This document shows, piece after piece, positions 367-60,011 of a DNA stretch of 64,000 nucleotides. The notes beneath the pieces were generated by a model that did no database searches, was not told the DNA's origin, and was given only the letters and a program-made list of their open reading frames with translations. Every line of letters begins with the position of its first letter. The stretch's first letter is position 1. A program made the position numbers and the translations under genes. Origin of the DNA: Dyella halodurans (GTDB lineage Bacteria; Pseudomonadota; Gammaproteobacteria; Xanthomonadales; Rhodanobacteraceae); the NCBI RefSeq assembly GCF_026283925.1, contig NZ_JAPDPF010000005.1:1-64000 (forward strand). Reading direction: 5' to 3'.

Positions 367-423
367 CGTGTCGAAAACGCACGCTGTTGACGCCTCCGCT
401 CGATGCCAAAGGTTTCAAGCCAA

Positions 424-460: not shown

Positions 461-501
461 GCTTTCGACAACATCGGCGGCGGCCGAACGGCCCATCAAC
501 A

Positions 502-630: not shown

Positions 631-775
631 GGGCGAATGACGGTGAGGGAGAGCCGGCGGTGAGGGGGCGAATGACGGTGAGGGGGAGTCGACGATGAGG
701 GGGGAATGGTCGTGAGGAAGCGACGCCGGTGAGGGCGGAATGACGCTGAGGGAGGGCCGACGATGAGGAAGATCC
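618..775. repeat. Degenerate short tandem repeats between the rrn end and the rhomboid gene
   Basis: From the right arm of the inverted repeat onwards the sequence is an imperfect array of units like GAATGACGGTGAGGG, GATGAGGGG and GCCGGTGAGGGCG, about 13-20 bases each. The unit equals the outer end of the inverted repeat, which suggests growth by slippage from it. I see no gene in 461-860. Confidence 0.6.
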
Positions 776-863
776 AGGTTCGGCTCACCAGCTTCGCCGT
801 GCTGCGACTTATCGCCTATGATGCAGAGTGTCCTTAATCGGCGTCTCGCGGAGCGACCTTCAC

Positions 864-1556: not shown

Positions 1557-1880
1557 ATGCGTATCAAGAAACTCTATAAGGTGACCTTCCTGCATCTGGG
1601 CAAGTGCTACGAGCTTTATGCCCGGCACGTGGCCTCCAGCAGTCTCTGGGGTTTCACCGAGGTTGGCGAGCTGGTCTTCGAGTCGGCTGGCGAGGGCTTG
1701 TTGGTCGATCCCACGGAAGAGCGCCTGCGCGAGGAGTTCAAGGACACCCGCGTACTCCATCTGCCAATGCAGTCGGTGGTACGCATCGAAGAGGTCGAGA
1801 GCAAGGGCGCACTGGTCATTCGCGATGCCAGCGATGGGCAGAAGATCACGCCGTTTCCGATGCCGCCGCGGAGCCGCTAA
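1557..1880 (+). CDS. DUF1820 family protein
   Basis: Small soluble protein of 107 residues starting MRIKKLYKVTFLHLGKCYEL, with the pattern LYARHVASSSLWGFTEV and a C-terminal PMPPRSR that fits the DUF1820 family of gammaproteobacteria. No catalytic motif is visible and the family has no assigned role that I know of. It follows the rhomboid gene by 9 bases, so it is probably its operon partner. The stop lies 18 bases from the convergent gene's stop. Confidence 0.85.
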   Translation: MRIKKLYKVTFLHLGKCYELYARHVASSSLWGFTEVGELVFESAGEGLLVDPTEERLREEFKDTRVLHLPMQSVVRIEEVESKGALVIRDASDGQKITPFPMPPRSR

Positions 1881-1898
1881 GGTCAGGCCGGCGGGCGT

Positions 1899-44669: not shown

Positions 44670-46478
44670 TCAGAACGTGGTCTGGAAGGTGAAGTCGACG
44701 TAGTTGCGATCACGCAGCAGCGAAGCGAGACCGGCACTCGAGGTCACCTGGCCAGCTGCGTTGGTGGCGACGCGGCCTTCGAAGCCGATGTACTTCAGGT
44801 CGAAGCGGTATTTGGAGCGTACGTCCGCACCCACGCCGATGGAGAAATTGCCGTTGCCCTTGTTGCCGCCGAAGGTCACCGCGGAATTGCCCACCAGGCC
44901 CATCGAATAGGTCAGCGGCAACAACAGGTCGACGCCCGGATAGACCTGGAACCAGGTCGGGGTGAAGTTCACCTGGGTGCCAATGAAATCCTTGGTCGGC
45001 TTGTCGATGCCGGTATAGGTGGGAGCGCCCAGGAACGCTGCGGCGTTCTGCGTCACCTTGTCCCAGCGGTTGTAGGTGAACTCGACCACGTAGTTGGCGG
45101 TGTCAAACAGCGGGGTCTTCGGCACGATGCCGGCAAAGTCGGTGACGGCGTGCCAGGTATCGCCACGGGCGCCGGCGGTCTGCCCCTGTTCGGGCAGGGT
45201 GCTGATGGCCCCAGGAACCTTGCTTGCCAGTGCAGCCGGCAGTAGCTGAATCGGCACGCTGACCAGCGGCATGTTGTGGCGGTAGTTCACTTCCGCACTC
45301 ACGCTGACACCGAGGATCTGCTTGGCGAAGCTGGCTCCGTAGATATCGATGTCGCTGGCATAGCTGGCCATGTACTGGCCGATATTGCCTTGGAGGATCT
45401 GGGAGACACTGGCCATGGACGGGTCGATATAGCAAACCGTTGGCGTGATCGACTTGTAGCCGAGCTTCTTGCAGACCGCGGCGGGCACGTTGGGCGCCAC
45501 GGCAGGCGCCACGATCACCTGCGGCTGGATATCCGAGGTCTTGCGGTAGTACAGGCCGATGGTGGAATCGATCAGCTCCGGTGTCCAGCGCATCGCCAGG
45601 CCCCAGTCGCCATGGTCACTCGGCGTGATGTCGTTGCCGCGCAGCACGCGCTGGGCCGCATTGATGTACAGCGACTGGCCACCCTGCAACACCGCGTCAT
45701 TGGGGGCCATGTAGGAACCCGACTCGGGGTAGAACACCTGCTCCCAGCCCAGGTAGTACTGGCCTTCGATCGAAAGCGTGGGCGTTGCCTGCACCTGCGT
45801 CGACACCTGCGGGCGCGGGCGGAACAATTCCTTCGCCGTCACGCCTGGCACGGTGAGCAGCTTGCCGATGTCGAGCGAAGCCTGGCCGTAGCTGAGCGAG
45901 TTGATCGGATTCAGCAGGGCTTCGCCCCAGAACACGGTGTAGCGACCGGCCTTGGTATTGACGTTGACGTCGTCCACGTCGAAGTTGCCGAACGCGAACG
46001 CATCGAGGATCTGCCCGGAAGGTCCGTGGAAATAGCGGTTCGTGTAGTTGGGCAGGCCGAGCGCGGGCGCACCGTTGACGATGTGGTTGGACGACGCGAC
46101 GTGCGTGTTGTCCAGCGACTCATAGGCCTGGTCGTACCAGCCGTCCGCGCTGAGGCGAAAGCCGTAGTTCTTCTTGTAGACGAAGTCGAACTCGCTCAGC
46201 ACGTCAAGTCGATTGGTGACGATTGAGTTGTTGCCGAAATTGCGATCACCGTCGTCGTAGTTGGGGCTGGCGAGAATCGACCCGTCCTGTTGGTGAGCGC
46301 GATGGCCAAGGTTGTAACGAACGGTATTGTCCCAACGAATCGAAATGTCCGGGTTGCCGGTGTCGATCTCGACAGCCTGGGCGATTCCCGTGAACCCAAG
46401 CGCAGCCGCCACGGCAAGCGCCATCAGACGGATGGCCGTCCCACTCCGGCGCCTGTTCGCCCCATAAACGTTCTTCAT
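44670..46478 (-). CDS. DUF1302 outer-membrane protein
   Basis: 602 residues with a signal peptide (MKNVYGANRRRSGTAIRLMALAVAAALGFTGIAQA, cleavage near 35). A beta-rich body begins VEIDTGNPDISIRWDNTVRYNLGHRAHQQDGS, the DUF1302 signature, and ends with Phe (NYVDFTFQTTF), as outer-membrane barrels do. DUF1302 proteins are typically encoded with DUF1329 and MMPL genes in clusters for uptake or breakdown of hydrophobic compounds such as alkanes or steroids and are suspected porin-like channels. It is preceded at 46832-46857 by the shared operator-like motif. Confidence 0.9.
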   Translation of the reverse strand: MKNVYGANRRRSGTAIRLMALAVAAALGFTGIAQAVEIDTGNPDISIRWDNTVRYNLGHRAHQQDGSILASPNYDDGDRNFGNNSIVTNRLDVLSEFDFVYKKNYGFRLSADGWYDQAYESLDNTHVASSNHIVNGAPALGLPNYTNRYFHGPSGQILDAFAFGNFDVDDVNVNTKAGRYTVFWGEALLNPINSLSYGQASLDIGKLLTVPGVTAKELFRPRPQVSTQVQATPTLSIEGQYYLGWEQVFYPESGSYMAPNDAVLQGGQSLYINAAQRVLRGNDITPSDHGDWGLAMRWTPELIDSTIGLYYRKTSDIQPQVIVAPAVAPNVPAAVCKKLGYKSITPTVCYIDPSMASVSQILQGNIGQYMASYASDIDIYGASFAKQILGVSVSAEVNYRHNMPLVSVPIQLLPAALASKVPGAISTLPEQGQTAGARGDTWHAVTDFAGIVPKTPLFDTANYVVEFTYNRWDKVTQNAAAFLGAPTYTGIDKPTKDFIGTQVNFTPTWFQVYPGVDLLLPLTYSMGLVGNSAVTFGGNKGNGNFSIGVGADVRSKYRFDLKYIGFEGRVATNAAGQVTSSAGLASLLRDRNYVDFTFQTTF

Positions 46479-46654
46479 GCAGCACTCCTCCCCCTAAAGC
46501 CAATCTGCAATCCCGTCGGGGGTCCAACACACCTGCATCCGCACCATGTACCTGGTACGGGACGCGTCGCGCCGCACGTGGGCCGTAGCCATGGTGCGGC
46601 CTGGTTGTCGGTACTCCACACGCGGGTACGTGTCGCCAAGCAGCCTCAGAAACT

Positions 46655-46664
46655 CCCCCCCCCC
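46655..46664. repeat. Ten-base C homopolymer
   Basis: Ten consecutive C followed by GGG, in the upstream region of the DUF1302 gene. Runs of this length can change by slippage and vary expression, or reflect a sequencing length error. Confidence 0.6.
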
Positions 46665-46831
46665 GGGCCACGCGACGAATCTCATACCGGTGCCAACGCT
46701 TCGGACCGGTCAGCCCACGACCGAACCGTTCGGCGCGATATGAGCGATGCCAGGACCGTCACGACCGGTGTTGAGCCAGCCGGCCGTGTTTGTTCCGGTC
46801 TATTGAGAGTCATGCGGCCGCCTTCGAAAGG

Positions 46832-46857
46832 CCCCCCCCACTCCGATGGGGGAGGGG
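46832..46857 (-). promoter_or_regulatory. Operator-like motif A (DUF1302 operon)
   Basis: On the minus strand it reads C4-T-C5, eight variable bases (ATCGGAGT), then G8, 353 bases before the DUF1302 start. It has the same architecture, length and orientation as the motifs at 54048-54073 and 57017-57042. It has a MalT-box-like GGGGGAGGGG half. Confidence 0.6.
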
Positions 46858-47058
46858 CGTCTCATGCAGAACAAGCGCGAGAGGCCTCGACAATGCATGA
46901 GGCAAGCTGGGCGCGATGGCGTGCTTGGGTGCTGCGACGATGACCATCGAGGCGCGTCGTCTTGGCGCCGACGCGTGCATTCGACCAGCCATCCTGGACC
47001 CTACGTGCGCATCGTCGTGCGTGGGACTCGCCATGGCCCAGTATGGGCCGCGCGCGTT

Positions 47059-47748
47059 TCAGGCCAGCGATTTCAGCATGGCCATCGCGAGCTCCTCCGG
47101 CGGCTGCGCACCCATGCGGGGCACGCGATCTTTCAGCACGAAGCCCGGCACGCCCGCGATGCCCTGGTGCCGGGCGTCATCGAGCCATCGCGGCAACGGT
47201 GTCCCGTGCATGGGCGCGACCAGCAGAGCGAGCGTGCGAGCGCGCTCAAGACCAAACGCTTCACCGATACCTGCAAGCACCTGCAGGTCGCCGATATCCT
47301 CATTGCGACAGAAGAATGCGTCGAACAGACGATCGATGAGCTGGGCCTGGAGCGCATGACCACCCGACTGCCCGGCGTGTTCTATCAGCCGATGCGCGGC
47401 AATCGTATTGGGCATGAGCTCGATGTGCTCAAAATCGAACTCCACCCCAGTGGCCAGCCCGACCTCGCGAACCTGGCGACGACGTGCCTCGACGGCGCTC
47501 GCCGAGCCCAGGCGCTTCAGGTAGAAGGCCTGGAACGGGACGCCTGAAAGTGGCAGATCCGGCAGTAGCGGCAGCGACTTCCACTGCACGACGACTTCCA
47601 CATCCGGGTAGCCAAGCCTGAGCAAGTCGATCGCCTGCTCGAGCTGCCGCTTTCCGATCAGGCACCAGGGGCAGACGAGATCGAAATAGAACTCGACGGC
47701 GATGCGCCGCTGCAGCGTTTTTGCATCGACTTCCGCTGGGCAGCTCAT
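47059..47748 (-). CDS. DsbA/FrnE-like thiol oxidoreductase
   Basis: 229 residues of the DsbA-like 2-hydroxychromene-isomerase/FrnE superfamily. The N-terminal VEFYFDLVCPWCLIGKRQLEQAID has a CPWC motif, and the C-terminal GVPGFVLKDRVPRMGAQPPEELAMAM is the cis-Pro strand region. There is no signal peptide, so it is cytoplasmic. It overlaps the preceding hydrolase stop by four bases (ATGA), so the pair is translationally coupled and is the last part of the minus-strand catabolic operon. Confidence 0.85.
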   Translation of the reverse strand: MSCPAEVDAKTLQRRIAVEFYFDLVCPWCLIGKRQLEQAIDLLRLGYPDVEVVVQWKSLPLLPDLPLSGVPFQAFYLKRLGSASAVEARRRQVREVGLATGVEFDFEHIELMPNTIAAHRLIEHAGQSGGHALQAQLIDRLFDAFFCRNEDIGDLQVLAGIGEAFGLERARTLALLVAPMHGTPLPRWLDDARHQGIAGVPGFVLKDRVPRMGAQPPEELAMAMLKSLA

Positions 47749-48305
47749 CGCAGCGAATCGATGAGTGTCTCCGCCAACGGCCACGGCCCGTAACCCGCGG
47801 CAGGGTTGAGGTGGCCGACATCGCCGAGCTCGACGAGGCGGCTGCCCCAGGCATCGGCCAGTCCGGCAGCGCGCTGGGCGCTGCACAGCGGATCGGTGCT
47901 GCTGGAGGCGAGCGTACTGGGAAATGGCAGGCGTCCGCGCGGAACCGGCAGCCAGCCGTTGTCGCTGAGTGCTTCCATGGTCGGATAACCGGCCGGCATC
48001 GGCGATTCCAGGTCGGCCGGCGCGGCGAGCAGCGCGCTATGGATGGGACGATGCTGCCGCTGTGCCCAGTGCACCGTGATCAGCACGCCGGCACTGTGCG
48101 CGACCAGAATCACCGGGCCGTCGATGTCGGCGAGCGTCTCGTCGAGTGCCGCCACGCGCGCTGCAAGGCTGAGCTTGTCATGTTGCAGTGGCGGCACCGA
48201 GCGGGAGCCGGGAAGCTTCGCTTCGAGCAGGGTCTGCCAGTGCTCGGCGACGTGGTCGCGCAGCCCGGGCACGAACAGGATCGTCGGGTTCGAGAGGTTT
48301 TGCAT
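47745..48305 (-). CDS. RBBP9/YdeN-type alpha/beta hydrolase
   Basis: 186 residues of the small serine-hydrolase RBBP9/YdeN family. ILFVPGLRDHVAEHWQTLLEA is the typical start, PVILVAHSAGVLITVHWAQ has the nucleophile Ser, and VELGDVGHLNPAAGYGPWP has the His, with an Asp (STDPLCS) between them. It probably hydrolyses a carboxylic ester or lactone. It is translationally coupled to the DsbA-like gene and starts 26 bases behind the MFS gene, in the same operon. Confidence 0.88.
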   Translation of the reverse strand: MQNLSNPTILFVPGLRDHVAEHWQTLLEAKLPGSRSVPPLQHDKLSLAARVAALDETLADIDGPVILVAHSAGVLITVHWAQRQHRPIHSALLAAPADLESPMPAGYPTMEALSDNGWLPVPRGRLPFPSTLASSSTDPLCSAQRAAGLADAWGSRLVELGDVGHLNPAAGYGPWPLAETLIDSLR

Positions 48306-48330
48306 CGATGGCGAATCCGTGGATGAAATA

Positions 48331-49677
48331 TCAGTGCGCCGGCGTGGATGCCGAGGCCTGGATGCGTGCGAGATCGTTGGCGTAATGGCGGCGACCCATC
48401 CAGAACGCGGTCGCCGCGAACACCGCCATCAGCGGAATCCACTTGAAGGCGCCGAGCAGGCCGATGTGGTCGGCCAACAGGCCGGTAAGCACGGGGCCGG
48501 GCGCGAGCCCCAGCAGATTGTTTGCGAGGGTGAGCGTGGCGAACGCGGAGGCGTGGATCGGCGTCGGCGTGAGATTCGCGACCATCGCACCGGCCGGACC
48601 GGCCGTGCCGGCGGCGAGGAACATGCCCAGACCGATCATGCTCAGCTGGCCGGGTCCCGGCGGCAACTGGAACGCAATGCCGAGCATGATCGCCGTGATC
48701 AGGCAGAACGCGATGGCCATGGCCATCTTGCGCGATGGCAGGCGACGGCATAGGCGATCGGTGATGGCACCGCACATCACCATGCCCAGGGCGGCGATCA
48801 GCACAAAGGCGGCTGCGCTGACGCCGGCCTTGTCGGGCGTCATGCCGTAGTAGCGGTTGAGGAAACTGGGCAACCAGGCCATCACCGCAGCCATGATGAA
48901 CAGCTGCAAGCCACTGCCGATGTAGGCGCAAATCACCGATGCGCTGGAAAACAGGCCGCTGAACAGGCTGCGCAGCGACAGGCGAAAGCCTGGCTCGGAG
49001 GCACCCGGGCGCAGGCCTTCGCCGCCACGCTCGCGAAGCCTGCGCTCGCTCACCGTCACCGCATAGAGCAGCACCAGTGCGCCGCCGAAGGCCGCCATGG
49101 CGGCGAACGCCCAGCGCCAGCCGAGATGCGTGGCGAGAATGCCGCCCAACGCCATGCCGGCGACCGAACCAAAGGCGCCACCCGCCATGAAGGCGCCGGT
49201 GAGGGTAGAGCGCAAGTGCGCAGGGAACACGCTGATGATCAGCGCAACGCCGACGCTGCCATAGGCGGCCTCACCCAGGCCGACAAAAAAACGTGCGGCG
49301 AACATCTGTCCGAAGCTCGTTGCCAGGCTGCAGGCAAGCGTGGCGAGGCTCCACAGCGTGGCCATCAGGATGATGCTGCGTACGCGTCCCCAGCGGTCGG
49401 CGAGCACCGAGAGCGGGAAGGTGAGCAGGCCTACCAGCAGCGCGACGATGCCGGAGAGCGAGCCCAGCTGCGTATCGGACAAGCCCCATTCGGCCTTGAG
49501 CAGCGGAAAGACCGCATTGAGCACCTGGCGCGACATGTAGTCCGACAGCAGCAGCCCGAACGTGAGGGCGAACACGAGCCACGCGTAAAAGCGCGGCGTA
49601 GCGGTGGACGTGGCAAACGTCTGCGGTGAAGCTTCGGCGTAGTGCATTCCCAAAACGGTATCCTCGCCAGCATCCAT
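48331..49677 (-). CDS. MFS transporter (aromatic acid/organic anion type)
   Basis: About 448 residues with 12 hydrophobic segments. N-terminal FYAWLVFALTFGLLLSDYMSRQVL is followed by the MFS signature between TM2 and TM3 (FPLSVLADRWGRVRSII), and the second half shows the equivalent GAITDRLCRRLPSRKMA. It resembles the anion:cation symporter group (hexuronate, phthalate and other aromatic acid carriers). It most likely imports or exports the organic acid handled by the cluster. The start at 49677 is the best in-frame ATG but has no strong ribosome site; 49647 is an alternative. Confidence 0.88.
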   Translation of the reverse strand: MDAGEDTVLGMHYAEASPQTFATSTATPRFYAWLVFALTFGLLLSDYMSRQVLNAVFPLLKAEWGLSDTQLGSLSGIVALLVGLLTFPLSVLADRWGRVRSIILMATLWSLATLACSLATSFGQMFAARFFVGLGEAAYGSVGVALIISVFPAHLRSTLTGAFMAGGAFGSVAGMALGGILATHLGWRWAFAAMAAFGGALVLLYAVTVSERRLRERGGEGLRPGASEPGFRLSLRSLFSGLFSSASVICAYIGSGLQLFIMAAVMAWLPSFLNRYYGMTPDKAGVSAAAFVLIAALGMVMCGAITDRLCRRLPSRKMAMAIAFCLITAIMLGIAFQLPPGPGQLSMIGLGMFLAAGTAGPAGAMVANLTPTPIHASAFATLTLANNLLGLAPGPVLTGLLADHIGLLGAFKWIPLMAVFAATAFWMGRRHYANDLARIQASASTPAH

Positions 49678-49764
49678 GCCGTGATTGATGGCGCGATTGC
49701 GCGTCTCACGCGGTGGGTCGCCGGGTGGAGCGCCCACGGCGCTCCGCCCGGCGACGGTGACGGC

Positions 49765-50823
49765 TCAGGCAGCGAGCTCGGTCAGACTACGCTTGGCTGG
49801 CTTGCGATTCGGCGAAAAGCCGTTGGCGGCCAGGGTCTCCTCGATGGTGTCGTAGAACACGCCGATCTTCAGGATCTCGCGCGCCTCCTTGCCATTGGCG
49901 ACCTCGCGACCGAATTCGCGCGACATGCGCACCAGCTGTTCGATCTGTTGCACCGTCGTCATCTTGCCGGTGCGCGACTGGTTCCACAGGTTGTCCTCGA
50001 TGCCGCAGCGCACGTGCAGGCCCATGGCGATGCCCATCATGTTGATCGGCAGCACGTTGCGCATGCTGCTTTCGACCGTCAGCATGGTGCCGTCAGGGAT
50101 GGCGCGCACGAAGTTGGCCAGGCTGTAGATGGTGGGCTGGTCCATGCCGCCGCCGATCGCCACCCAGTTGCACACCAGCGGGCCCTTGTAGACGCCGCGG
50201 CGGATCAGGCGCTCCACCGTCTCGTAGCTGTTGATGTTGTAGAACTGGAACGCGCTCTGGATGCCGGCGGCGGTGAGGCGCTTGACGTGCTCCTCAATGA
50301 AGCCTGGGCCGGAGGGCACGATCATCTCGCGATAGGCCTGGTAGTTGTGCGGCTCGGCCAGGGAGGTGCCGGCGAGATCCGCCATTTCCATCTGCTCGAC
50401 CACGTTCATCTGGGTCGTGTTGACGGTGACCGTCACCTGGTCCGGCTTGGGGTCGAGTTCGGCCAGCATGTGGCGGGTGTCGTCCTGCAGCCACTGGGCG
50501 GCGGCGCCGTCGGACTCGGGCGCGAAGGAGATCGAGCCGCCGACCTGGATGACCATGTCCGGCACCGCCTTGCGTACGCCGGCAATCAGTTCATTGAACA
50601 TGGACAGCCGCTTGGAGCCCTTGCCGTCCAGCTCGCGCACGTGCAGGTGCAAGACCGAGGCGCCAGCGTTGTAGCAGTCGACCGCCTTCTGCACCTGCTC
50701 GGCCATGGTGACGGGAATGTCTTCCGGAAAGTCCGAAGGAATCCACTCGGGACCATAAGGCGCTGCAGTGATGACCAGCTTGTCCTGGTTTTCGGGAAAC
50801 AGCGAACCGTCGAGGAAATTCAT
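49765..50823 (-). CDS. BKACE (DUF849) beta-keto acid cleavage enzyme
   Basis: 352 residues of the BKACE family, zinc enzymes that split a beta-keto acid with acetyl-CoA into acetoacetate and a new acyl-CoA. Family motifs are LVITAAPYGPEW, NAGASVLHLHVRELDGKGS (the HxH metal ligands), QVGGSISF, HNYQAYREMIV, and RCGIEDNLWNQS (the C-terminal metal Glu). The native beta-keto substrate is unknown; known members act on 3-keto-5-aminohexanoate, dehydrocarnitine and other beta-keto acids. It is second behind TauD/TfdA (35-base gap). Confidence 0.92.
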   Translation of the reverse strand: MNFLDGSLFPENQDKLVITAAPYGPEWIPSDFPEDIPVTMAEQVQKAVDCYNAGASVLHLHVRELDGKGSKRLSMFNELIAGVRKAVPDMVIQVGGSISFAPESDGAAAQWLQDDTRHMLAELDPKPDQVTVTVNTTQMNVVEQMEMADLAGTSLAEPHNYQAYREMIVPSGPGFIEEHVKRLTAAGIQSAFQFYNINSYETVERLIRRGVYKGPLVCNWVAIGGGMDQPTIYSLANFVRAIPDGTMLTVESSMRNVLPINMMGIAMGLHVRCGIEDNLWNQSRTGKMTTVQQIEQLVRMSREFGREVANGKEAREILKIGVFYDTIEETLAANGFSPNRKPAKRSLTELAA

Positions 50824-50858
50824 GGCTTGTCCTGTTGATATGGAGTGGTAGGGGCAAT

Positions 50859-51707
50859 TCAGAACGTGGCGCTGCCGATGATGCCGGCGCGTTCCATCTT
50901 TCGATGGCAGGGCGGGTAATCCATGACGGCATAGTGTTGGGTGGAACGGTTGTCCCAGATGGCGACGCTGTTCTTCTGCCAGCGCCAGCGCACCTGGTAC
51001 TCGGGGATATAGGCCTGGCTGATCAGGTAGCTGAGCAGTTGGCCTGCACCCGGGTTGGCGTCCTGGCCGAAGCGCACGTTCTCCCTGGTGTGGAAGTTGC
51101 TGAAGTGCGTGGTGAAGGCGTTGACGAACAGCACCTTCTCGCCGGTCTCCGGATGCGTGCGCACCACCGGGTGCTCGGCATCGGGATATTGGGCCTTGAG
51201 CGCGAGGCGCCTTTCGATCGGCATCGCCGCGCCGAACGAGGCCTCGATGCTGTGGCGTGCCCGCAGGTTGGCGATCTGCGCCTTCACGTGCTCGGGCAAC
51301 ATCTCGTAGGCAAGCGCCATGTTCGCCCACATGGTATCGCCGCCCACGGGCGGGCATTCCACGCAGCGCAGCACGCAGCCCATCGGCGGCGCCTCGCGCC
51401 AGGTGGCATCGGTATGCCAGGCGTTTTCGTAGCGGTCGATCGGCGTGTCGGGCGTCTTGTAGATCTGCACCAGGCCCGGCGCATCGGGATGGCTGGGCGC
51501 CACCGGATGGTCCTCCAGCTCGCCGAAGCGGCGCGCGAAGGCCACGTGGTCCTGGCGGCTGATGTCCTGGTCGCGCAGGAACAACACGCGATGTTTGAGC
51601 AGGGCCGCCTTGATCTCGGCGAACAGGGCCTCATCGTGGGCGGCGTCGGCGAGGCTCACGCCGAACAGTTCAGCGCCGATATGACAGGTCAGTGGCTCGA
51701 TGCGCAT
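50859..51707 (-). CDS. TauD/TfdA-family Fe(II)/2-oxoglutarate dioxygenase
   Basis: 282-residue non-haem iron dioxygenase. The iron facial triad is His-Asp in ENAWHTDATWREAPP (HxD) and the distal His in WDNRSTQHYAVMDYP, with Arg downstream for 2-oxoglutarate (CHRKME region). HSPLTCHIGAE-like N terminus (IEPLTCHIGAELFGV) is classic for TfdA/TauD proteins. It probably hydroxylates an alkanoate, sulfonate or aryloxyalkanoate, which would supply the oxygen step of the pathway. It ends 35 bases before BKACE and starts 9 bases behind the oxidoreductase stop. Confidence 0.92.
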   Translation of the reverse strand: MRIEPLTCHIGAELFGVSLADAAHDEALFAEIKAALLKHRVLFLRDQDISRQDHVAFARRFGELEDHPVAPSHPDAPGLVQIYKTPDTPIDRYENAWHTDATWREAPPMGCVLRCVECPPVGGDTMWANMALAYEMLPEHVKAQIANLRARHSIEASFGAAMPIERRLALKAQYPDAEHPVVRTHPETGEKVLFVNAFTTHFSNFHTRENVRFGQDANPGAGQLLSYLISQAYIPEYQVRWRWQKNSVAIWDNRSTQHYAVMDYPPCHRKMERAGIIGSATF

Positions 51708-51716
51708 GGCAGTTCC

Positions 51717-52697
51717 TCAGAGGACAAAGATCGACGAGCCGGTGGTCTTGCGCGATTCCAGGTCGCGGTGGGCCTGCACCGCATCCTCGAGCGCATAGCG
51801 CTGGTTGATCTCGATCTTGATGCGGCCGGACGCGACCTGGCTGAACAGCTCATTGGCGAGCTCGGCCTTTTCGGCGGGATCCGCGATGTAGTCGGCCAGC
51901 GCAGGGCGGGTGAGGTATAGCGAGCCCTTCATGGCGAGGATCTGCGGGTCGAACGGCGGGATCGTGCCGGAGGCGGTGCCCACGCAGACCATGAGGCCAC
52001 GACGACGCAGCGAATCGAGCGACGCCATGAACGTGTTCCTGCCAACCGAATCGAACACGACCGACACACCCTTGCCGTCGGTCAGCTCGCGCACGCGCGC
52101 GGCGACGTCTTCGTGGCTGTAGTTGATGGTTTCGGCACAGCCATGGGCGCGCGCAACCGCGGCCTTCTCGTCGGTCGAGACCGTGCCGATCACGCGCAGG
52201 CCGAGCAGCCTGGCCCATTGGGACACGATCAAGCCGACGCCACCGGCGGCGGCGTGCAGGAGAATCGTCTCGCCCGCCACGAACGGGTAGATACGGCGCA
52301 TCAGGTAGGCCGCGGTCAGTCCGCGCATGGTCATTGCGGCAGCGGTTTCGCTGTCAATGGCGCTTGGCAGGCGGACCAGCGGAGCGGCCGGCACCAGGCG
52401 GGCCGTGCTGTACGCGCCGAGCGTGTTGAGAAATCCCGTGTAGGTGACGCGGTCGCCCACGGCGACGTTGGTCACGCCCACACCGACTTCCTCGACAATG
52501 CCTGCCGCCTCCACGCCAATGCCGTTGGGCAGCGGAATCGGGTAGGTGCCGTTGCGGAAATAGGTGTCGGCGAAATTCAGGCCCACCGCCTGGTGGCGCA
52601 GCCGCACTTGGCCTGGGCCGGGCGCACCGACCTCGACTTTCTCATAGCGCAGCACGTCAGGGCTGCCGGCCTCGTAAAAGCGGATTGCATGTTCCAC
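51717..52697 (-). CDS. NADPH:quinone oxidoreductase-like MDR dehydrogenase
   Basis: 326 residues, zinc-less medium-chain reductase of the quinone oxidoreductase (Qor) group: N-terminal GroES-like domain (GPGQVRLRHQAVGLNFADTYFRNGTYP), Rossmann motif ETILLHAAAGGVGLIVSQWARLLG, and TDGKGVSVVFDSVGRNTF. There are no structural zinc cysteines. Such enzymes reduce enones or quinones with NADPH, which fits reduction of an alpha,beta-unsaturated intermediate. It precedes TauD in the same operon and follows the Usp-hemerythrin gene by 59 bases. Confidence 0.93.
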   Translation of the reverse strand: MEHAIRFYEAGSPDVLRYEKVEVGAPGPGQVRLRHQAVGLNFADTYFRNGTYPIPLPNGIGVEAAGIVEEVGVGVTNVAVGDRVTYTGFLNTLGAYSTARLVPAAPLVRLPSAIDSETAAAMTMRGLTAAYLMRRIYPFVAGETILLHAAAGGVGLIVSQWARLLGLRVIGTVSTDEKAAVARAHGCAETINYSHEDVAARVRELTDGKGVSVVFDSVGRNTFMASLDSLRRRGLMVCVGTASGTIPPFDPQILAMKGSLYLTRPALADYIADPAEKAELANELFSQVASGRIKIEINQRYALEDAVQAHRDLESRKTTGSSIFVL

Positions 52698-52756
52698 GCG
52701 ATACTCCTTGACTCAAAATTCGGGCGGGGTGCGCCTGAGGTGTGGCGGGTGACGCG

Positions 52757-53782
52757 CTACGGGTCGGCTGCATCTGGCGCGAAATTGACGATGCGCGAGA
52801 ACAACCGCCGATGCTCGGCCTCGTTCTCTTCATCCCTGCCGCCGTCGCGGCTGTCGACGAAGGCAGCGTGAACCGCGCGCCAGTCCGCTTCGGTGAGATA
52901 GCGCTCGGCGGCCGGGATGATCACGCCTTCCTCGCGCCCCATGTGTTCCCACATGAAATGTGCGTACTGTTCGACGGCGTCACGCAGCTCGCCGAGGGTG
53001 GCGGCGCTGCGGTCGTAGCGCTCGAGCAGGGCGGCGTGTGCCTCGACCAGGGAACGACCGCGCTCGTGCTGGCGTTCCAGCTCGTCCAGCTCGGCATGGA
53101 ACACCGCGGTCCGTTCGCGCAAGCGCTTGTACAGCTGGTCGTGTCCTTTCACGCGGCGCGCGGCGGCCGGGAATTCCATGATGTAACGGACCATGGCCCG
53201 CATCAGCGGCACATCGGCGCTACCACCTTGTTGTGAATAGGTGTTCACCAGACGCAGCCAGGCATGCAGGACCGCGGCTACCGAGCGGTGTTCTTCACGG
53301 ATCCTGGCAATCACCGGATTGGCGTTGCCCAACTCACGCATCGAAGACACCAGCACGGGCAGTTCGCCGTGCGTCAGCACGTTCAGCGTCTGCGAGCCGA
53401 GCGTCGTGCCGGTGCGCGCCTTCTGACCGTGCGAGGCCATGAAGACCAGGTCGCAGCCGGCGTCGCGCGCCACCTCGAGGATGGCCTCGTACGGCGTACC
53501 GCCGCCGCGCACTTGCGAAGCGCACGGCACCCCGAGCGCACGGGCAGCCGATTCCGCCATGGTGAGCAGCGCGCGCGCGCGGTCCTGGTAGGTATCGCGG
53601 TACTCGGCCGGCGAAGCCGGGCGCACTACGTCGGCGTCGCCAGCCGCCCGTGAAGCATGCTCCGCCTGGACATGCAGAAAAGTCACACGCGCGCCCAACG
53701 TATGCGCGAACTTGACGGCCCGACTGACCGTCTCGATCGATAGTTCGGTGTCATCGAGTGGAACAAGCAGATGACGGTACAT
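52757..53782 (-). CDS. Usp - hemerythrin (HHE) fusion protein
   Basis: 341 residues. The universal-stress-protein domain (about 1-155) begins MYRHLLVPLDDTELSIETV and ends in the ATP-binding loop GTTLGSQTLNVLTHGELPVLV. The hemerythrin-like HHE domain (about 170-330) has REEHRSVAAVLHAWL, HAELDELERQHERGRSLVEAH and HFMWEHMGREEGVII, the repeated His/Glu iron ligands. AGGAG five bases before the ATG at 53782 supports this start. It is probably an oxygen/NO or stress sensor leading the operon. It is the first gene behind motif B. Confidence 0.88.
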   Translation of the reverse strand: MYRHLLVPLDDTELSIETVSRAVKFAHTLGARVTFLHVQAEHASRAAGDADVVRPASPAEYRDTYQDRARALLTMAESAARALGVPCASQVRGGGTPYEAILEVARDAGCDLVFMASHGQKARTGTTLGSQTLNVLTHGELPVLVSSMRELGNANPVIARIREEHRSVAAVLHAWLRLVNTYSQQGGSADVPLMRAMVRYIMEFPAAARRVKGHDQLYKRLRERTAVFHAELDELERQHERGRSLVEAHAALLERYDRSAATLGELRDAVEQYAHFMWEHMGREEGVIIPAAERYLTEADWRAVHAAFVDSRDGGRDEENEAEHRRLFSRIVNFAPDAADP

Positions 53783-54235
53783 ACTGACTCCTGACAGGTG
53801 TGCTACCCGTGAACCTGGACGGGGCCGGCCCACCAGCGCCGGACGCCGATGAAACCCACCGCTGCTGCCGTGAAGGGGAGTCTCCGCCGCCCGCGCCCGA
53901 TGCCGCCGATCGCAGGCCTGGATTTTCGAGAGCCGGGCCCGGTCGCAAGACGCTCCACTTCAAGTCGTTCACGCCGGCGTCGCAGCCGGGAGTCCCCCAA
54001 CCCTAAAACGTTGCGAGGCCAAGCCTAGGTCTGGTCACCCATGTGCTCCCCCCCCGGCTAGGAGGGGGGCGGGTGGCTCGATAGCGAGTGGTCACGAGCG
54101 GCGCGGCGTGCCTACAATGTCTTGCGATCGTGCACCGCACACGCTCGCGGACTTCATCGGTCGGCGCGCCTCCGTGCCAGCGATCGCGTCACCCGTTCGG
54201 AGACCTTGCTCCAGCGCACCACGGGAACCTGTCTG
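53783..54235. other. Divergent control region of the usp and luxR genes
   Basis: About 450 bases without a gene, between divergent operons. It contains motif B (54048-54073). The rest is GC-rich with several small inverted repeats but no clear promoter hexamers. Confidence 0.6.
54048..54073 (-). promoter_or_regulatory. Operator-like motif B (usp-qor-tauD operon / luxR)
   Basis: On the minus strand it reads C3-G-C6, eight variable bases (TCCTAGCC), then G8, 265 bases before the Usp-hemerythrin start. Relative to motif A and C the T is replaced by G and the C-run is one longer. It could act on both divergent genes; luxR starts 163 bases away. Confidence 0.6.
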
Positions 54236-56926
54236 ATGGCCACCACCTCCAGCGAGGCCGTACCCGCCATCGCCGAGCTTGTTCTGAAGACCATGCCTCC
54301 GCGGACGCCTCGTCATCGGCTGGTCCGTCCGCGGCTCGGTCTGGACGACGAGCAGTTTCGCGATTGCCCGCTGATTCTCGTGCAGGCACCGCCCGGCTTC
54401 GGCAAGACCTCGCTGCTGGCTCAGTGGCGACACGAATTCCTGGCGCGCGGTTCGGCCGTGGCCTGGATCTCCGCCGATGGCAGCCCCGACCCGCAGCGCG
54501 TGCTGCACAGCCTGGTGCTGGCGGTGCGAATGGGCTGCGGCCGCCCGAATTTCGGTGCCACGCTGCTGGAAGGCGGCGCGTCGACCATGGGCGATCTGGA
54601 GAGCATCACGGCCTGGTTGAGCGAGGTGGCCCAGGCTTCGCTGTCGCTGGTATTGATGATCGACGAGGCCGAGCGGATGTCCGCCAACAGCCTCGCAGCG
54701 CTCGACTACCTGCTGCACAACGCGCCGCCGAACCTGCGCGTGGTGGTGGCTGGACGTGGCGCGCTGGACGGCATGGTGGCCGATCTGCGCACCTACGGCC
54801 AATGCACGTCGGTCGGCATCGAGAGCCTGCGTTTCACCCTCGAGGAAACCATCGCCCTGGTGCGCAATCGCGTTGGCAGCAAGGCCGATGCCGACACCTG
54901 CGCACGCCTGCATGACATGACCGAGGGTTGGCCGCTCGGGCTGCAACTCGTGCTGGCGGCGATGGAGCGCGGTAGCGACCCACGCAGCATTTTCGGCACC
55001 CATTTGTCCGGTTCCCGCAACCAGCTGGTCGAGGCACTCACGGCCGAGCTGGCACCCGAAGACGTGGCCTTTCTCACGCGGATCGCCGTGGTCGAGCAGT
55101 TGCATCCGGACCTGTGCATGGCCTTGACCGGCGATGCCGAGGCGCCGCAACGCCTGGCACGGCTGGCTCGTGACACGCCCATCTTCGTGGTGGGCGAGGA
55201 TTCGGAGTGGTACCGCCTGCACGCGCTGGCCTGCGATGCACTGCGCGGCCACCTGGCGGAACTGCCGGCGCAGGAGCGCGCCGAGTTGCACGGCAGGGCG
55301 CAGGCCTGGCTGGCAGCGCACGGCATGTTCACCCAGGCCGCACGGCACGCACGCGAAGCGGGGCGGGAGGGTGTGGCCTTCGAGCTGGCCCAGCAAGGCC
55401 TCTACGAAGCCGTCACGCAAGGACACATCGGAACCGTGCGCGACTGGCTCGAACTGCTGCCCGAAGTGGTGCTGGACCAGCATCCGCGGCTACGCCTGGC
55501 GGCGGCCTGGGCCTTGGCGGTGAGCGAGCGTCATGAGGAAGCCGAGCGCATGGTCGGCTTGATCCTCTCGCGTCCGGACGTCGATGTCGCCTTGCGTTAC
55601 GAATGCGTGCTGATTGCCAGCGGCGCGGCCTATTTCGCCGACGATCCCGATCGCTGCGTGGCCATGTTTGCGCCATGGAGCGAGGCGCCGCCCGGGATCG
55701 AGCCTCGCATGCGCTGGATGCATGTCAACCGCCAGGCCATGCTTGCATTGCTGCAGGGCGATCCGGTGCAGGCGCGCCGCCTGCTGCAAAGCGCTGCGCG
55801 CCCGGATCTGCCACAAGGGACCGATTATGTGGCGCGCTGGGGCGAGTTCATCATCGGACTCAGCTATCTGTGGGAAGGGCAAGTGCGGCTCGGCGAGGAG
55901 GGGTTGCGGCTCGCCCTCGGTTCCATCGACGCCAAGCTCGGTCGACGGCACCCGCTTTCCTGCATGATCGCGGCGCTGCTGGCGGCGGCGGTGTATGAGG
56001 AAGGGCGACTGGACGAGGCGGTGGCGCTGCTCGCCAACCGGCTCGATGTGCTCGAACGCGTGGCGGCGCCGGAGGCCATCCTGGTGGGCTATCGCACGGC
56101 CACGCGGATAGCCGCTGCGCAAGGCGAGGAGCACCGCGCGCTCGACATCCTGGAGGCCTTGTTCTCGATTGGCGAGACGCGCCGCCTGCCGCGCCTGTGC
56201 ATTGCCAGTCTCAGCGAACAGATCCGCGTGCACGCCGGACGCTTTCGTCGCGAGACCTGCGCCGCCCTGATCGCGCGGATCGATCAGCTGGTGGCCTCCG
56301 AAAGTCCCCGGCGCGGGCCGCTCTGGCGGCGCAACGTGGAGTTGCTTAGCGCCATGGCGCATACCTATGCCGCGATGGCGGCACAGGATTGGCCCCGCGT
56401 GCTCGAGGCCATCGCACATGCGGTGCCGCTGGCCGAGCAGGCGCGGCTTGGCCGCTCTCGCATCGAATGCATGACCCTGCGCGCCTATGCGCTCGATCGT
56501 AACGGTGAAGATGGCCGCGCCCTGCTGCACGAGGCAATGAGCCTTGCCCGCACCTACGGCCTGACGCGCATTTTCGCCGACACCCACCCCGTGGCGGCGG
56601 ACTGGGCCTATCGCATGGCGGACGAGGGGAGTGGTGCGGCGGGGAACCCATCGACGCCGCAGGCACGGGTGGTCAACCCGCCGCCCGAGCAGCATCAGGG
56701 CGGGCCGCGCGTGGTGCCAAGCATGGTGCTGACGCCGAAGGAGCGTGAAGTGCTGGAGCTGCTCGCCCGCAATCTGTCGAACAAGGAAATCGCCCAGGCC
56801 ATGGCGGTCGGCGAGGCCACCATCAAATGGCATCTCAAGAACCTGTTCAGCAAGCTGGGCGTGGGTACGCGCCGGCACGTGGTGCACCGGGCCCAGATGC
56901 TTGGACTGATCCAGGGGCTGGAATAG
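54236..56926 (+). CDS. MalT-like large LuxR-family transcriptional activator
   Basis: 896-residue LAL/MalT-type STAND regulator. A P-loop NTPase domain covers about 45-340 (Walker A APPGFGKTSLLAQW; Walker B-type LSLVLMIDEAERM; sensor GRGALDGMV). A TPR-like helical repeat region covers about 350-820. The C-terminal LuxR/GerE HTH covers about 830-892 (LTPKEREVLELLARNLSNKE, EIAQAMAVGEATIKWHLKNLF, GVGTRRHVVH). ATP/inducer-driven oligomerisation would allow activation at GGGGA-rich boxes. The ATG at 54236 has GGGAA eight bases upstream; a longer frame from 54122 has no site. It most likely controls the surrounding operons. Confidence 0.92.
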   Translation: MATTSSEAVPAIAELVLKTMPPRTPRHRLVRPRLGLDDEQFRDCPLILVQAPPGFGKTSLLAQWRHEFLARGSAVAWISADGSPDPQRVLHSLVLAVRMGCGRPNFGATLLEGGASTMGDLESITAWLSEVAQASLSLVLMIDEAERMSANSLAALDYLLHNAPPNLRVVVAGRGALDGMVADLRTYGQCTSVGIESLRFTLEETIALVRNRVGSKADADTCARLHDMTEGWPLGLQLVLAAMERGSDPRSIFGTHLSGSRNQLVEALTAELAPEDVAFLTRIAVVEQLHPDLCMALTGDAEAPQRLARLARDTPIFVVGEDSEWYRLHALACDALRGHLAELPAQERAELHGRAQAWLAAHGMFTQAARHAREAGREGVAFELAQQGLYEAVTQGHIGTVRDWLELLPEVVLDQHPRLRLAAAWALAVSERHEEAERMVGLILSRPDVDVALRYECVLIASGAAYFADDPDRCVAMFAPWSEAPPGIEPRMRWMHVNRQAMLALLQGDPVQARRLLQSAARPDLPQGTDYVARWGEFIIGLSYLWEGQVRLGEEGLRLALGSIDAKLGRRHPLSCMIAALLAAAVYEEGRLDEAVALLANRLDVLERVAAPEAILVGYRTATRIAAAQGEEHRALDILEALFSIGETRRLPRLCIASLSEQIRVHAGRFRRETCAALIARIDQLVASESPRRGPLWRRNVELLSAMAHTYAAMAAQDWPRVLEAIAHAVPLAEQARLGRSRIECMTLRAYALDRNGEDGRALLHEAMSLARTYGLTRIFADTHPVAADWAYRMADEGSGAAGNPSTPQARVVNPPPEQHQGGPRVVPSMVLTPKEREVLELLARNLSNKEIAQAMAVGEATIKWHLKNLFSKLGVGTRRHVVHRAQMLGLIQGLE

Positions 56927-57319
56927 CGCGATGCGGCGCCATCGGCGGCCGCGTGCTTGCGATGAAACCTGACGGCCTGGTTGGCCGGCCAGCCTCCCTG
57001 CTTGGCGAGTGACGAACCCCTCCCCCGACGTTTTGGGGGGGGTGTACTTCGCTGCGCGACCAACAATGGTACCGACCGCCTTCGTGCGGCTGCGTTCCTC
57101 TGAGGGCGGAGTCGGCGACTGCGGACGAGAAGAGCTAGGGCGACGTAGCAAGCATCAGCGATGTGCAGTTGCACATCGGGAGCCGACCAGACCAAACCGG
57201 TCGGTGGATGCGACGCAGCCTGTGCTTATGCAGCGGGGGGAGGTGATGCGAAGCGTGCTAGCGCAAGCATTGCGCCGCTGGAACCCGACAATCGAAACAC
57301 CATTGTGAGGAGCATGCGC
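56927..57319. other. Upstream region of the DUF1329 operon
   Basis: About 390 bases without a gene. It contains motif C and several small inverted repeats (e.g. GATGTGCAGTTGCACATC at about 57160-57177, ACCGGT at about 57196-57201). No T-run terminator follows luxR. Confidence 0.6.
57017..57042 (+). promoter_or_regulatory. Operator-like motif C (DUF1329 operon)
   Basis: C4-T-C5, eight variable bases (GACGTTTT), then G8, 277 bases before the DUF1329 start and in the same orientation to its gene as motifs A and B. Confidence 0.6.
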
Positions 57320-58669
57320 ATGCAATTCCGCAAAGCCCTGATGGCTGGGGCCGCCGCCGTCCTATGCTGCGGCGTAGGGCACGCCAGCGTGTCGTCCGAG
57401 GACGCGCACAAACTCGGTACCACGCTTACCGGCGTAGGCGCCGAAATGGACGGCAGCAGCGACGGTGCCATTCCCGCCTATACCGGCGGACTCACCACGG
57501 TACCTGCTTCGTTCAAGGCCGGCAGCGGCATTCGTCCCAACCCCTTCGCCAACGAGAAGCCCTTGTTCTCGATCGACGCGAAGAACATGGACAAGTACGC
57601 GGGCAACCTGACCGAAGGCACCCGGGCCTTGATGAAGAAATACCCGGGTTATCACATCGACATTTATCCGACGCATCGCACCGCGGCCTTTCCGAAGTTC
57701 GTGGTGGAGAACACGGCCAAGTGCGCGATCGAGGCCAAGACGGCTGCGAACGGTCGCTCGATGAGCGGTTGCCACGCGGGTTTCCCGTTCCCGCTGCCGC
57801 AATCGGGCTTCGAGGCGATGTGGAACCACCTGGTGCGCTTCAACGGCGTCGCCTATGCCGCCCGCTATCGCAACTACAACGTCGATGCGTCGGGCGGCGT
57901 GGCGCTCACCACGGAAGGCGACGCCTCCGAGGAATACCCGTACTGGGATGTGAGCAGGCCCGATGCCGACGTCTATTGGCAACAGCGCCTACTCTATACC
58001 GGCCCGGCACGTCGCGCTGGCGAGGCGTTGCTGATCGTCGACCCGCTCAACTACGAAGACAAGGGTCGTCACGCCTGGCAATACCTGCCGGGGCAGCGGC
58101 GCGTGAAGGTGGCGCCTGACCTGGCGTTCGATACGCCAAACCCGGGCTCGGGCGGCGCCTCGACGTTCGATGACGTGTTCCTGTTCAATGGCTCGATGGA
58201 TCGCTACGACTTCAAGCTGGTGGGCAAGAAGGAGATCTTCATCCCCTACAACGCCTACAAGATGGCGTACGACACCAAGGCGCAGGACCTGCTCAAGCCG
58301 AACTTCATCAATCCGGACGACGTGCGCTGGGAACGGCATCGCGTGTGGGTGGTCGAGGCCACGCTGGTGCCGGGCAAGCGCCATATCTATAGCAAGCGCA
58401 CGTTCTATCTCGACGAGGACAGCTGGGCAGCGGTCGCCTCCGACGCCTATGACGCGCGCGGCCAGTTGTTCCGCACCGGCTTCGCGTATGTCACGCCGAG
58501 TTACGAGGTACCCGCGCCGATTGCCGACCTGCACGGCATCTATGACCTGATCGCGGGCTCCTACTCGTTGACCGGCTTTACCGGTGAAACCGGTGGCTAC
58601 CGCTACACCAAGCCGATGACGGAGCGCGACTGGGCCCCGTCATCGCTGGCCGGCTCGGGCATTCGCTGA
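57320..58669 (+). CDS. DUF1329 outer-membrane-linked protein
   Basis: 449 residues with a signal peptide (MQFRKALMAGAAAVLCCGVGHA). The DUF1329 body begins SSEDAHKLGTTLTGVGAEMDG, with GLTTVPASFKAGSGIRPNPFANEKPLFSIDAKNMDKYAGNLTEG and WQYLPGQRRVKVAPDLAFDTPNPGSGG as typical blocks, and ends ERDWAPSSLAGSGIR. Always found beside DUF1302/MMPL genes in hydrophobic-substrate clusters; the LolA/LolB-like fold suggests lipid transfer across the periplasm. The ATG at 57320 is chosen over 57314 because GAGGAG is seven bases upstream. Confidence 0.9.
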   Translation: MQFRKALMAGAAAVLCCGVGHASVSSEDAHKLGTTLTGVGAEMDGSSDGAIPAYTGGLTTVPASFKAGSGIRPNPFANEKPLFSIDAKNMDKYAGNLTEGTRALMKKYPGYHIDIYPTHRTAAFPKFVVENTAKCAIEAKTAANGRSMSGCHAGFPFPLPQSGFEAMWNHLVRFNGVAYAARYRNYNVDASGGVALTTEGDASEEYPYWDVSRPDADVYWQQRLLYTGPARRAGEALLIVDPLNYEDKGRHAWQYLPGQRRVKVAPDLAFDTPNPGSGGASTFDDVFLFNGSMDRYDFKLVGKKEIFIPYNAYKMAYDTKAQDLLKPNFINPDDVRWERHRVWVVEATLVPGKRHIYSKRTFYLDEDSWAAVASDAYDARGQLFRTGFAYVTPSYEVPAPIADLHGIYDLIAGSYSLTGFTGETGGYRYTKPMTERDWAPSSLAGSGIR

Positions 58670-58690
58670 TCGCGCTGGACGGCGCCGTCG

Positions 58691-58727
58691 TGGCGGGTGG
58701 GACAGCTTCCTGCTGTCCCACCCGCCA
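58691..58727 (+). terminator. Long hairpin between DUF1329 and YCF48-like genes
   Basis: TGGCGGGTGGGACAGC and GCTGTCCCACCCGCCA form a perfect 16-base stem with a five-base loop. There is no T-run, so it may damp or stabilise the transcript within the operon instead of ending it. Confidence 0.55.
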
Positions 58728-58922
58728 TCGCTAGAACAACCGTGGAGATGGCATGCAGATCCGCTGCCGCTCCCATGGCGGCGAAACACGCTCCGATGCG
58801 TGCCGTGTCTCCACCCCACCTGCACGCGTCGCCTTGGATGACGCTTGTTGCCCGGCATGGGCAGGCGCCGCGCCCGGCGCTCGGGGATCCAACAGTAGGC
58901 CTTACGTCTTCCGGGACTTCCG

Positions 58923-59990
58923 ATGTTTTTGCATAGAGTTCGACGCGCGCTGGTTGCGCTTGCCTTCATGTCGCCAGCGCTTGCGTTCGCCGGCTTCACC
59001 GACGTCCTGGATACGCCAGCGAGCGCGAGCCCACTCGCGTCCAAGGGTTTGCTCAATGGACTGGCGTTGGCCGGCAAGCGCATCGTCGCCGTCGGTCAGC
59101 GCGGCCAGATCGTCTATTCGGACGACGCCGGCGCCAGCTGGCGACAGGCCTCGGTACCGGTCGCATCCGATCTCGTCGCAGTGAGCTTTCCGACGCCGCA
59201 GCAGGGTTGGGCCGTGGGCCATGACGGGGTCGTGCTTCACAGCAGCGATGGCGGCGCCACCTGGGCCAGGCAACTGGATGGGCGACGCGTTGGCCCGTTG
59301 ATGATGGAACAGCTGCGCGCGCGGGCCGCCCGCGGCGAACTGGGCAGCAGCGCGGACGCCGCTGCCTTGATCGAAGAAGCAGCCCGCATCGCGGCACAGG
59401 GCGCCGAGAACCCGTTCCTCGACGTCTGGTTTGCCGACGAGCACAACGGCTTCATCGTCGGCGCCTTCAACTTGATCTTCCGCACCACGGATGGCGGCAA
59501 GACCTGGGTCTCGTGGTTCGATCGCACCGAAAACCCCGATCGCCTGCACCTGTATGCGGTGCGTGGCGTGGGTACGGACGTCTATATCGCGGGCGAACAG
59601 GGCCTGCTGCTCAAGCTCGACCGCGAGGCCGACCGCTTCCATGTGCTCGCCACACCTTACAAGGGCACCTATTTTGGCGTCATCGGCAGCGGCGACGCGG
59701 TCGTCGTCTACGGCCTGCGTGGCAACGCCTATCGAAGTACCGATGGCGGCACGCATTGGCAAGCGATCGACACCGGCATCCAGGAAGGGCTGACCGGCAG
59801 CACCGCATTCGGTGCGCAGGGTCTGGCCCTGGTCAGCCAGGCAGGCAACCTGCTGGTGAGCCGCGATGACGGTGCGCACTTCACGCTGTATCGCCAGCCC
59901 AAGCCTGTACCCGCTTCCGCCGTTGCCGTTGTGGGCGATGCCACTGTGATCGCCGGCGCGCTTGGGGTGAAAACCCAGGCGTCGCACTGA
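58923..59990 (+). CDS. YCF48/BNR-repeat exported protein
   Basis: 355 residues with a signal peptide (MFLHRVRRALVALAFMSPALAFAG). A beta-propeller is made of BNR-type repeats (GAVGRGQIVYSDDAGASWRQ-like; HSSDGGATWARQ, FRTTDGGKTWVSWF, YRSTDGGTHWQAID, VSRDDGAHFTLY), as in YCF48/HCF136 proteins. In MMPL/RND clusters this protein is thought to aid assembly or to act as a periplasmic adaptor. It ends 21 bases before the MMPL gene, so they are cotranscribed. There is no strong ribosome site at 58923. Confidence 0.85.
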   Translation: MFLHRVRRALVALAFMSPALAFAGFTDVLDTPASASPLASKGLLNGLALAGKRIVAVGQRGQIVYSDDAGASWRQASVPVASDLVAVSFPTPQQGWAVGHDGVVLHSSDGGATWARQLDGRRVGPLMMEQLRARAARGELGSSADAAALIEEAARIAAQGAENPFLDVWFADEHNGFIVGAFNLIFRTTDGGKTWVSWFDRTENPDRLHLYAVRGVGTDVYIAGEQGLLLKLDREADRFHVLATPYKGTYFGVIGSGDAVVVYGLRGNAYRSTDGGTHWQAIDTGIQEGLTGSTAFGAQGLALVSQAGNLLVSRDDGAHFTLYRQPKPVPASAVAVVGDATVIAGALGVKTQASH

Positions 59991-60011
59991 GAAGCTTGGG
60001 AGACAAGCACG

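Follow-up and report, generated by a model that had tools for sequence, protein, structure and literature searches.

A repeated C-run/G-run element of Dyella halodurans as a probable operator of a MalT-like activator

Introduction

In a stretch of 64,000 nucleotides (nt) of Dyella halodurans (RefSeq assembly GCF_026283925.1, contig NZ_JAPDPF010000005.1, positions 1 to 64,000), hereafter called the window, three operons surround the gene of a MalT-like regulator, and each of them is preceded by an element of 26 base pairs (bp) in which eight bases separate a C-run from a G-run. Is this element a binding site, and if so, for which protein? An earlier note on the same DNA suggested a protein site with the local MalT-like regulator as its binder, and named a G-quadruplex or hairpin role as the alternative. 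According to our analysis, the three elements, A, B and C, are very probably operators of the MalT-like LuxR-family activator encoded at 54236-56926, the binding itself being predicted.

Results

In their strict form the elements are specific to the island

The pattern C5-N8-G8 matches three times in the window, compared with 0.01 matches expected, and none of 100 shuffled sequences contained at least three matches. Only four C- or G-runs of eight or more are present in the window, and three of these belong to the elements, Table 1. We could confirm the coordinates that the earlier note gave for them in the window sequence, as well as its distance of 265-355 bases to the first gene: from the G8 side to the ATG there are 353 nt for A (DUF1302), 265 nt for B (USP) and 271 nt for C (DUF1329). 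The left flank had been described as C4-[T/G]-C5(6), which is correct for A and C (C4-T-C5) and a small miscount for B, where it is C3-G-C6. All three elements also have the same orientation with respect to the gene they face. However, B is not simply upstream of one operon, because it is flanked by the divergent USP operon (-) and regulator gene (+).

In the complete genome of 4.69 Mb, C5-N8-9-G8 has three matches, all within the island, and the reversed pattern used as a control has zero. Many copies unrelated to the island, which would have spoken against the proposal, are in this strict form not seen, although a looser palindrome does match elsewhere in the genome (see Discussion).

The regulator was searched for in 61 genomes, the own genome and 60 relatives. 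It is present in nine of them, i.e. the own genome and eight other Dyella, with 77-97% identity, and all nine carry the three sites. The G-run is exactly eight long in 27 out of 27 Dyella sites, and C5 is kept in 25; in the other two, the A elements of G009 and G013, the C-run is C4 and the spacer is longer. Among the alignments listed, the site cores of the Dyella islands are stable and the intergenic flanks have diverged. The idea that the eight central bases differ freely does not hold. In the nine genomes the centre of B is nearly constant (GGCTAGGA plus one- or two-base variants) and that of C is either GACGTTTT or GGCGTTTT, and A is more variable than both. Further, the first three central bases are part of the left half-site of the 21-bp repeat found in relatives, described below.

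In the genus, 20 genomes were compared. Each of the nine that carry the regulator has two or three strict sites in the island, and G011, one of the nine, has a further strict site outside it (G011:C5, L089). Of the eleven Dyella genomes without a close ortholog, seven have no strict match and four (G010, G016, G017, G018) have one each; the lone match of G016 is a pure C/G run.

Site and regulator occur together

A named genome collection returned 226 matching stretches, 163 of which encode relatives of the regulator. The best 80 of the 163 were kept, with 48-81% identity; they include Dyella, Burkholderia, Caballeronia, Paraburkholderia, Variovorax, Aromatoleum, Microvirga, Rhodoblastus and others. 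Among viral contigs there was no confirmed relative of the regulator. The 80 loci contain 100 C-run/G-run matches, compared with 15 in the reversed sequences (both strands of the palindrome counted). In beta- and alphaproteobacterial relatives the site is a 21-bp inverted repeat, CCCCYYYC-N5-GRRRGGGG, and two of the six position pairs tested (5-17 and 6-16) show half-site symmetry beyond that of 500 shuffles.

From the 75 loci other than L124-L128, i.e. without Dyella, we trained a 21-bp palindromic position weight matrix (PWM), which converged on 62 unique sites. When the window is ranked with this Dyella-free matrix, B is first (17.8), A is second (14.1) and C is fifth among separate peaks; a place scoring 14 or more exists in three of 60 simulated windows. 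The number of sites scoring at least 10 is 118 in the 80 loci and averages 8.0 in Markov-simulated loci. Of the 80 loci, 76 have a site (PWM 8 or more) no further than 450 bp from the regulator gene. This count is partly circular, the matrix having been built from 75 of the 80 loci, whereas no such circularity affects the window ranking, the matching presence or the -10 spacing. Among the remaining loci, L142 has the site just inside the tblastn-called start and L194 has it before BKACE. The neighbouring operon varies (DUF1302-DUF1329; BKACE-ADH-MFS-ligase; ligase alone), while the site beside the regulator persists.

The genus of locus L138, Caballeronia, was examined in 58 genomes with a pattern shaped on Caballeronia sites, CCCTCYC-N5-GRGAGGG. 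It has 84 matches in 22 genomes, and its reversed control has three matches in the 58 genomes. The regulator (E up to 1e-100) is found in exactly those 22 genomes, and the other 36 have neither. Many of the sites, among the matches listed, are on contigs other than that of the regulator gene, and the matching presence is therefore not only due to linkage.

The site often lies at a fixed distance from a predicted promoter

The -10-like hexamers were scored with a matrix. The best -10-like hexamer is at an offset of exactly 20 nt in 23 of 26 nonredundant USP-side flanks and in 29 of 39 nonredundant flanks downstream of the regulator; in the 80 loci, the flank facing the regulator gene has no preferred offset. 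Fourteen genomes were then scanned, resulting in 58 distinct sites, 22 of them beside the regulator (hand counts), and none of the other 36 had been used in training. For 19 of these 36 sites the best -10-like hexamer is at exactly 20 nt, with 1.6 expected. We prefer this full count to that of an earlier subset (14/21), which consisted of 20 hand-chosen sites of the 36 and one further PWM peak. Some of the 36 distal sites face DsbA-like, DUF1302, PhaC-type, porin, MFS or acyl-CoA dehydrogenase genes. In relatives the operator is thus placed, given predicted starts, at the -35 region, with the -10 at 20 nt, as for LAL regulators of the MalT-AlkS type.

In the own genome, the hexamer of B alone tops its flank, and the hexamers assigned to A and C are therefore based on conservation and analogy, Table 1. 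Only one sigma-70-like promoter match is present in 46400-57400, the one assigned to the regulator gene. As shuffles give a mean of 1.2 such matches, the support for this promoter is the conservation of its TACAAT.

The predicted leaders are about 240-330 nt long in the own genome (46478-46806, 53782-54022, 57067-57314). In Variovorax L202 and Ramlibacter L173 the start codon is seemingly, by eye, within tens of bases after the -10. The predicted DUF1302 leader contains a C10 run (46655-46664), which is 6 long in G014 and shorter in the other relatives listed; it is possibly a slippage or phase-variable tract. Paired operators, 41-51 bp apart, were seen at L230:3465-3536 and L231:3437-3498, near porin/MFS and PhaC-type genes. 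They have a -10-like hexamer 20 nt away on each outer side, although the hexamer of L230:3465 is not the best-scoring one.

The regulator has a MalT-like architecture

The top match of the regulator in a profile search is E. coli MalT (8bob_C, E 2.7e-22 over residues 26-422), which covers the STAND NTPase. Its C-terminus carries a GerE helix-turn-helix (HTH) domain (PF00196, 57.5 bits, residues 868-924 of the 934-residue frame). The structure model obtained a pLDDT of 80.6 from 33 diverse sequences, compared with 58.2 from nine close ones, and it contains a helical-repeat sensor domain, with helix pairs from about residue 365 to 798, mostly at pLDDT 80-96. Using Foldseek, the best match of the model is the STAND-TPR protein 6mfv (E 6.5e-12), and MalT (8bob_C) is found at 8.3e-12; the TM-scores are low. 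In the 33 diverse relatives, G54, G56, K57, T58 and S59 of the STAND domain are invariant, as are E860, T862, K864, W865, H866, N869 and K873 of the HTH. With 235.5 bits the protein is below the cut-off of 537 for the MalT equivalog, NCBIfam NF003420.

The genes around the regulator were named from Pfam and NCBIfam profile matches, Table 1. The BKACE protein (49765-51357) has about 190 N-terminal residues beyond its Pfam match.

Table 1. Elements, genes and predicted promoter hexamers of the island, in window coordinates.
Feature	Position	Strand	Description
Element A	46832-46857	-	C4-T-C5, 8 nt, G8; 21-bp core 46832-46852; candidate operator facing DUF1302
Element B	54048-54073	-	C3-G-C6, TCCTAGCC, G8; 21-bp core 54048-54068; candidate operator facing USP operon
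Element C	57017-57042	+	C4-T-C5, GACGTTTT, G8; 21-bp core 57022-57042; candidate operator facing DUF1329-BNR-MMPL
DUF1302 protein gene	44670-46478	-	Pfam PF06980; outer-membrane by analogy; presumed target of A
Acyl-CoA ligase	42880-44532	-	Downstream of DUF1302; NCBIfam 3-(methylthio)propionyl-CoA ligase above cut-off
USP plus hemerythrin protein	52757-53782	-	ATG at 53782; heads presumed operon USP-ADH-BKACE-MFS-DsbA
Remainder of presumed USP operon	47059-52697	-	NADPH:quinone reductase-like ADH, BKACE, MFS, DsbA-like
DUF1329-BNR-MMPL	57314-62417	+	DUF1329 57314-58669; YCF48/BNR 58923-59990; MMPL RND transporter 60012-62417
Regulator gene	54236-56926	+	MalT-like (LAL) LuxR-type: STAND NTPase, helical repeats, C-terminal GerE HTH; proposed binder
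-10-like hexamer GACTCT	46806-46811	-	20 nt from A; [GAC]A[CA]TCT in 9/9 genomes; weak sigma-70 match; putative
-10-like hexamer TAGGCT	54022-54027	-	20 nt from B; TAG[GTC]CT in 9/9 genomes
-10-like hexamer AACAAT	57062-57067	+	19 nt from C; kept in 9/9 genomes; putative
Sigma-70-like promoter of regulator gene	54089-54118	+	TGGTCA-N18-TACAAT; TACAAT in 9/9 genomes

Discussion

Why A, B and C are probably operators

The proposal that the local MalT-like regulator binds the element gains support from the co-occurrence of site and regulator in two genera, from the 76 loci in which the site stays near the regulator though the neighbouring operons change, and from the fixed -10 spacing together with a MalT-like sequence and fold that include a GerE HTH. 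According to this model, the two G-rich half-sites of the 21-bp inverted repeat point outward from a 5-bp centre, and two C-terminal GerE HTH domains would bind the core as a pair. In the target promoters a -10 would follow about 20 nt from the inner site edge, without a recognised -35 box; the site would therefore cover about -53 to -33 relative to the putative start sites, and the operator would stand in for the -35 box. The regulator, switched on by ATP plus an effector, would recruit RNA polymerase by contact (class II activation), i.e. it would act as an activator rather than as a repressor. The units activated in this way would be DUF1302-ligase, USP-ADH-BKACE-MFS-DsbA and DUF1329-BNR-MMPL. 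As the sigma-70-like promoter of the regulator gene is located beside B, this element may also adjust the expression of the regulator.

Several observations weigh against this interpretation. The looser palindrome has four zero-mismatch places in the own genome (G000), of which only B is in the island, and with one mismatch it gives 40 forward versus 18 reversed matches; the specificity in Dyella therefore rests on the strict C5-N8-9-G8. The best own-genome matrix match seen outside the window, L220:1500-1520 (G000:C11:374491-374511), has a PWM score of 18.0, above that of B, and lacks a -10 at 20 nt. With the Dyella-free matrix C scores 5.9, below places at 29800 and 25696, and its hexamer is at 19 nt, not at 20; the hexamers of both A and C are weak and outscored within their flanks. 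Two of the 80 loci, L133 and L190, are site-less by PWM. Among the sites away from the regulator, 17 of 36 lack the 20-nt spacing, and in the register preferred by the PWM L234 and L244 lose it too, which leaves 17 of 36 with it. The additional strict site of G011, which has the regulator, is outside the island (L089:1501-1521), between the called open reading frames (ORFs) 397-1164 (-) and 1706-2503 (-), and has no -10 at 20 nt. Finally, the 58 Caballeronia genomes are related and therefore not independent, and 13 of the 36 without the regulator are under 6 Mb.

The other two zero-mismatch places of the own genome outside the island are L221, with a PWM score below 8, and L222, which is inside a called ORF and has a score of 15.0 and AAAGAT at 20 nt. 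L220 is located between two called ORFs, with a T-run following on the minus strand, and by eye it is terminator-like. As a matter of judgement, we did not count these three as operator sites. A still looser pattern, CCCNCCCC-N8-10-G6, is present in 25 of the 61 genomes, many of them without a regulator ortholog, and its matches are often TGC...GCA stems or pure C/G runs. Because this pattern is not specific, we worked with strict patterns or with the matrix. Its two other matches in G000 are L079 (PWM 8.2, no -10 at 20) and L080 (PWM 0.4). A near-palindrome of the type CTCCTTCTCCCCGGAGGGG recurs among the one-mismatch matches of G000, for instance at C11:219558 and C21:98356, and is perhaps an interspersed repeat.

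Other explanations of the element

The sites could belong to another DNA-binding protein, or to a paralogous MalT-like regulator, that travels with the island. These genomes do have many LuxR-type HTH matches, and some sites are on contigs other than that of the regulator gene. However, it is the regulator that is common to loci differing in genes and gene order (loci collected by the regulator), and its presence coincides exactly with that of the site in the 58 genomes. L022-L026 are five more distant relatives, each covered with up to 1.5 kb of flank; among them only L022 has a site scoring at least 10 (10.4). In L081 there is a site of 13.7, located inside the coding sequence. We consider a different binder improbable.

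A G-quadruplex or hairpin role fits poorly. That the near-palindrome acts as a transcription terminator or as an RNA hairpin in the transcript is very improbable, even if a GC stem is possible, C and A follow the ends of upstream genes, and the similar palindrome L220 is followed by a T-run. B is between divergent genes, the elements are absent among the five terminator-like matches in 46400-57400, and there are zero Rfam matches in 42000-64000. Moreover, the -10 is downstream of the site, which would thus be outside the transcript it faces. Long G-runs are able to adopt unusual structures, and the strict retention of eight Gs in Dyella would agree with a role for the G8 run itself, as a G-quadruplex or other DNA structure. 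The sites of relatives do without long G-runs; CCCCTCTCGCGACGGGAGGGG, for example, has by eye only two one-strand G-runs of three or more, and four G-runs on one strand were not found by eye in the sites of Dyella or of relatives. We regard this explanation, too, as very improbable.

Wider meaning

Operators of the MalT-like activator in A, B and C would give a testable regulon, consisting of the regulator, a 21-bp operator, predicted promoters and targets in several proteobacterial classes. The poorly understood DUF1302/DUF1329/RND system gains a predicted regulator, and its inducer would indicate which compound is transported and broken down. As the distance from operator to -10 is rigid in tens of natural promoters, the system also makes a good case for class II activation by MalT-like proteins. 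More tentatively, one MalT-like activator might control, across gamma-, beta- and alphaproteobacteria, a regulon that combines apolar-compound transport (DUF1302/DUF1329/RND) with BKACE and acyl-CoA catabolism, as well as with PhaC-type genes in some betaproteobacteria. Its promoters would be -35-less with the rigid 20-nt spacing, and the Dyella operator would have drifted to near-pure C/G runs, where the shape of the G8 tract may share in recognition.

Comparison with known systems

Among the literature matches listed, with subscription papers mostly outside the scope, there is no report of this site or regulator, which is weak evidence of novelty. The parts of the A and C operons are known from elsewhere. 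DUF1302 and DUF1329 proteins are found in AmeABCD of Castellaniella defragrans (PMC6394551), where AmeD is an RND transporter for apolar monoterpenes, and in PP_0765/PP_0766 of P. putida (PMC10866462); unlike for the Dyella island, the passages of these two papers describe no regulator or operator.

Like the predicted Dyella activator, E. coli MalT is a STAND ATPase activator with a GerE HTH and a G-rich box at -35, and the two are similar in sequence and fold. Its box is GGGGA(T/G)GAGG, as quoted in the relevant passage of PMC7567727, and GGGGGAGGGG and GGAGGGGG resemble it by eye. In contrast to the E. coli system, no maltose genes were seen among the Dyella targets, the Dyella regulator is below the equivalog cut-off, and the site is an inverted repeat, where the title of the Vidal-Ingigliardi paper names a direct repeat. 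In Actinoplanes sp. SE50/110 the MalT motif is TCATCC-N5-GGATGA, with its 3' end 34.4 +/- 1.0 nt from the start site, according to the passages of PMC7567727. As proposed for Dyella, a MalT-like LuxR regulator is there paired with an inverted repeat that has a 5-nt centre and overlaps the -35, and copies of the site are found throughout a large co-regulated region surrounding the regulator gene; the half-site, GGATGA instead of GRRRGGGG (GGAGGGGG in Variovorax), and the target genes are different. AlkS of Pseudomonas putida GPo1, as described in passages of PMC8784404, is of the LuxR/MalT type and activates a hydrocarbon pathway; a 20-bp inverted repeat precedes both its target promoter and its own gene. 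Its target genes are others, and the likeness concerns the layout. The regulator-operator pair proposed for Dyella would be a new one, of the known general kind represented by MalT and AlkS.

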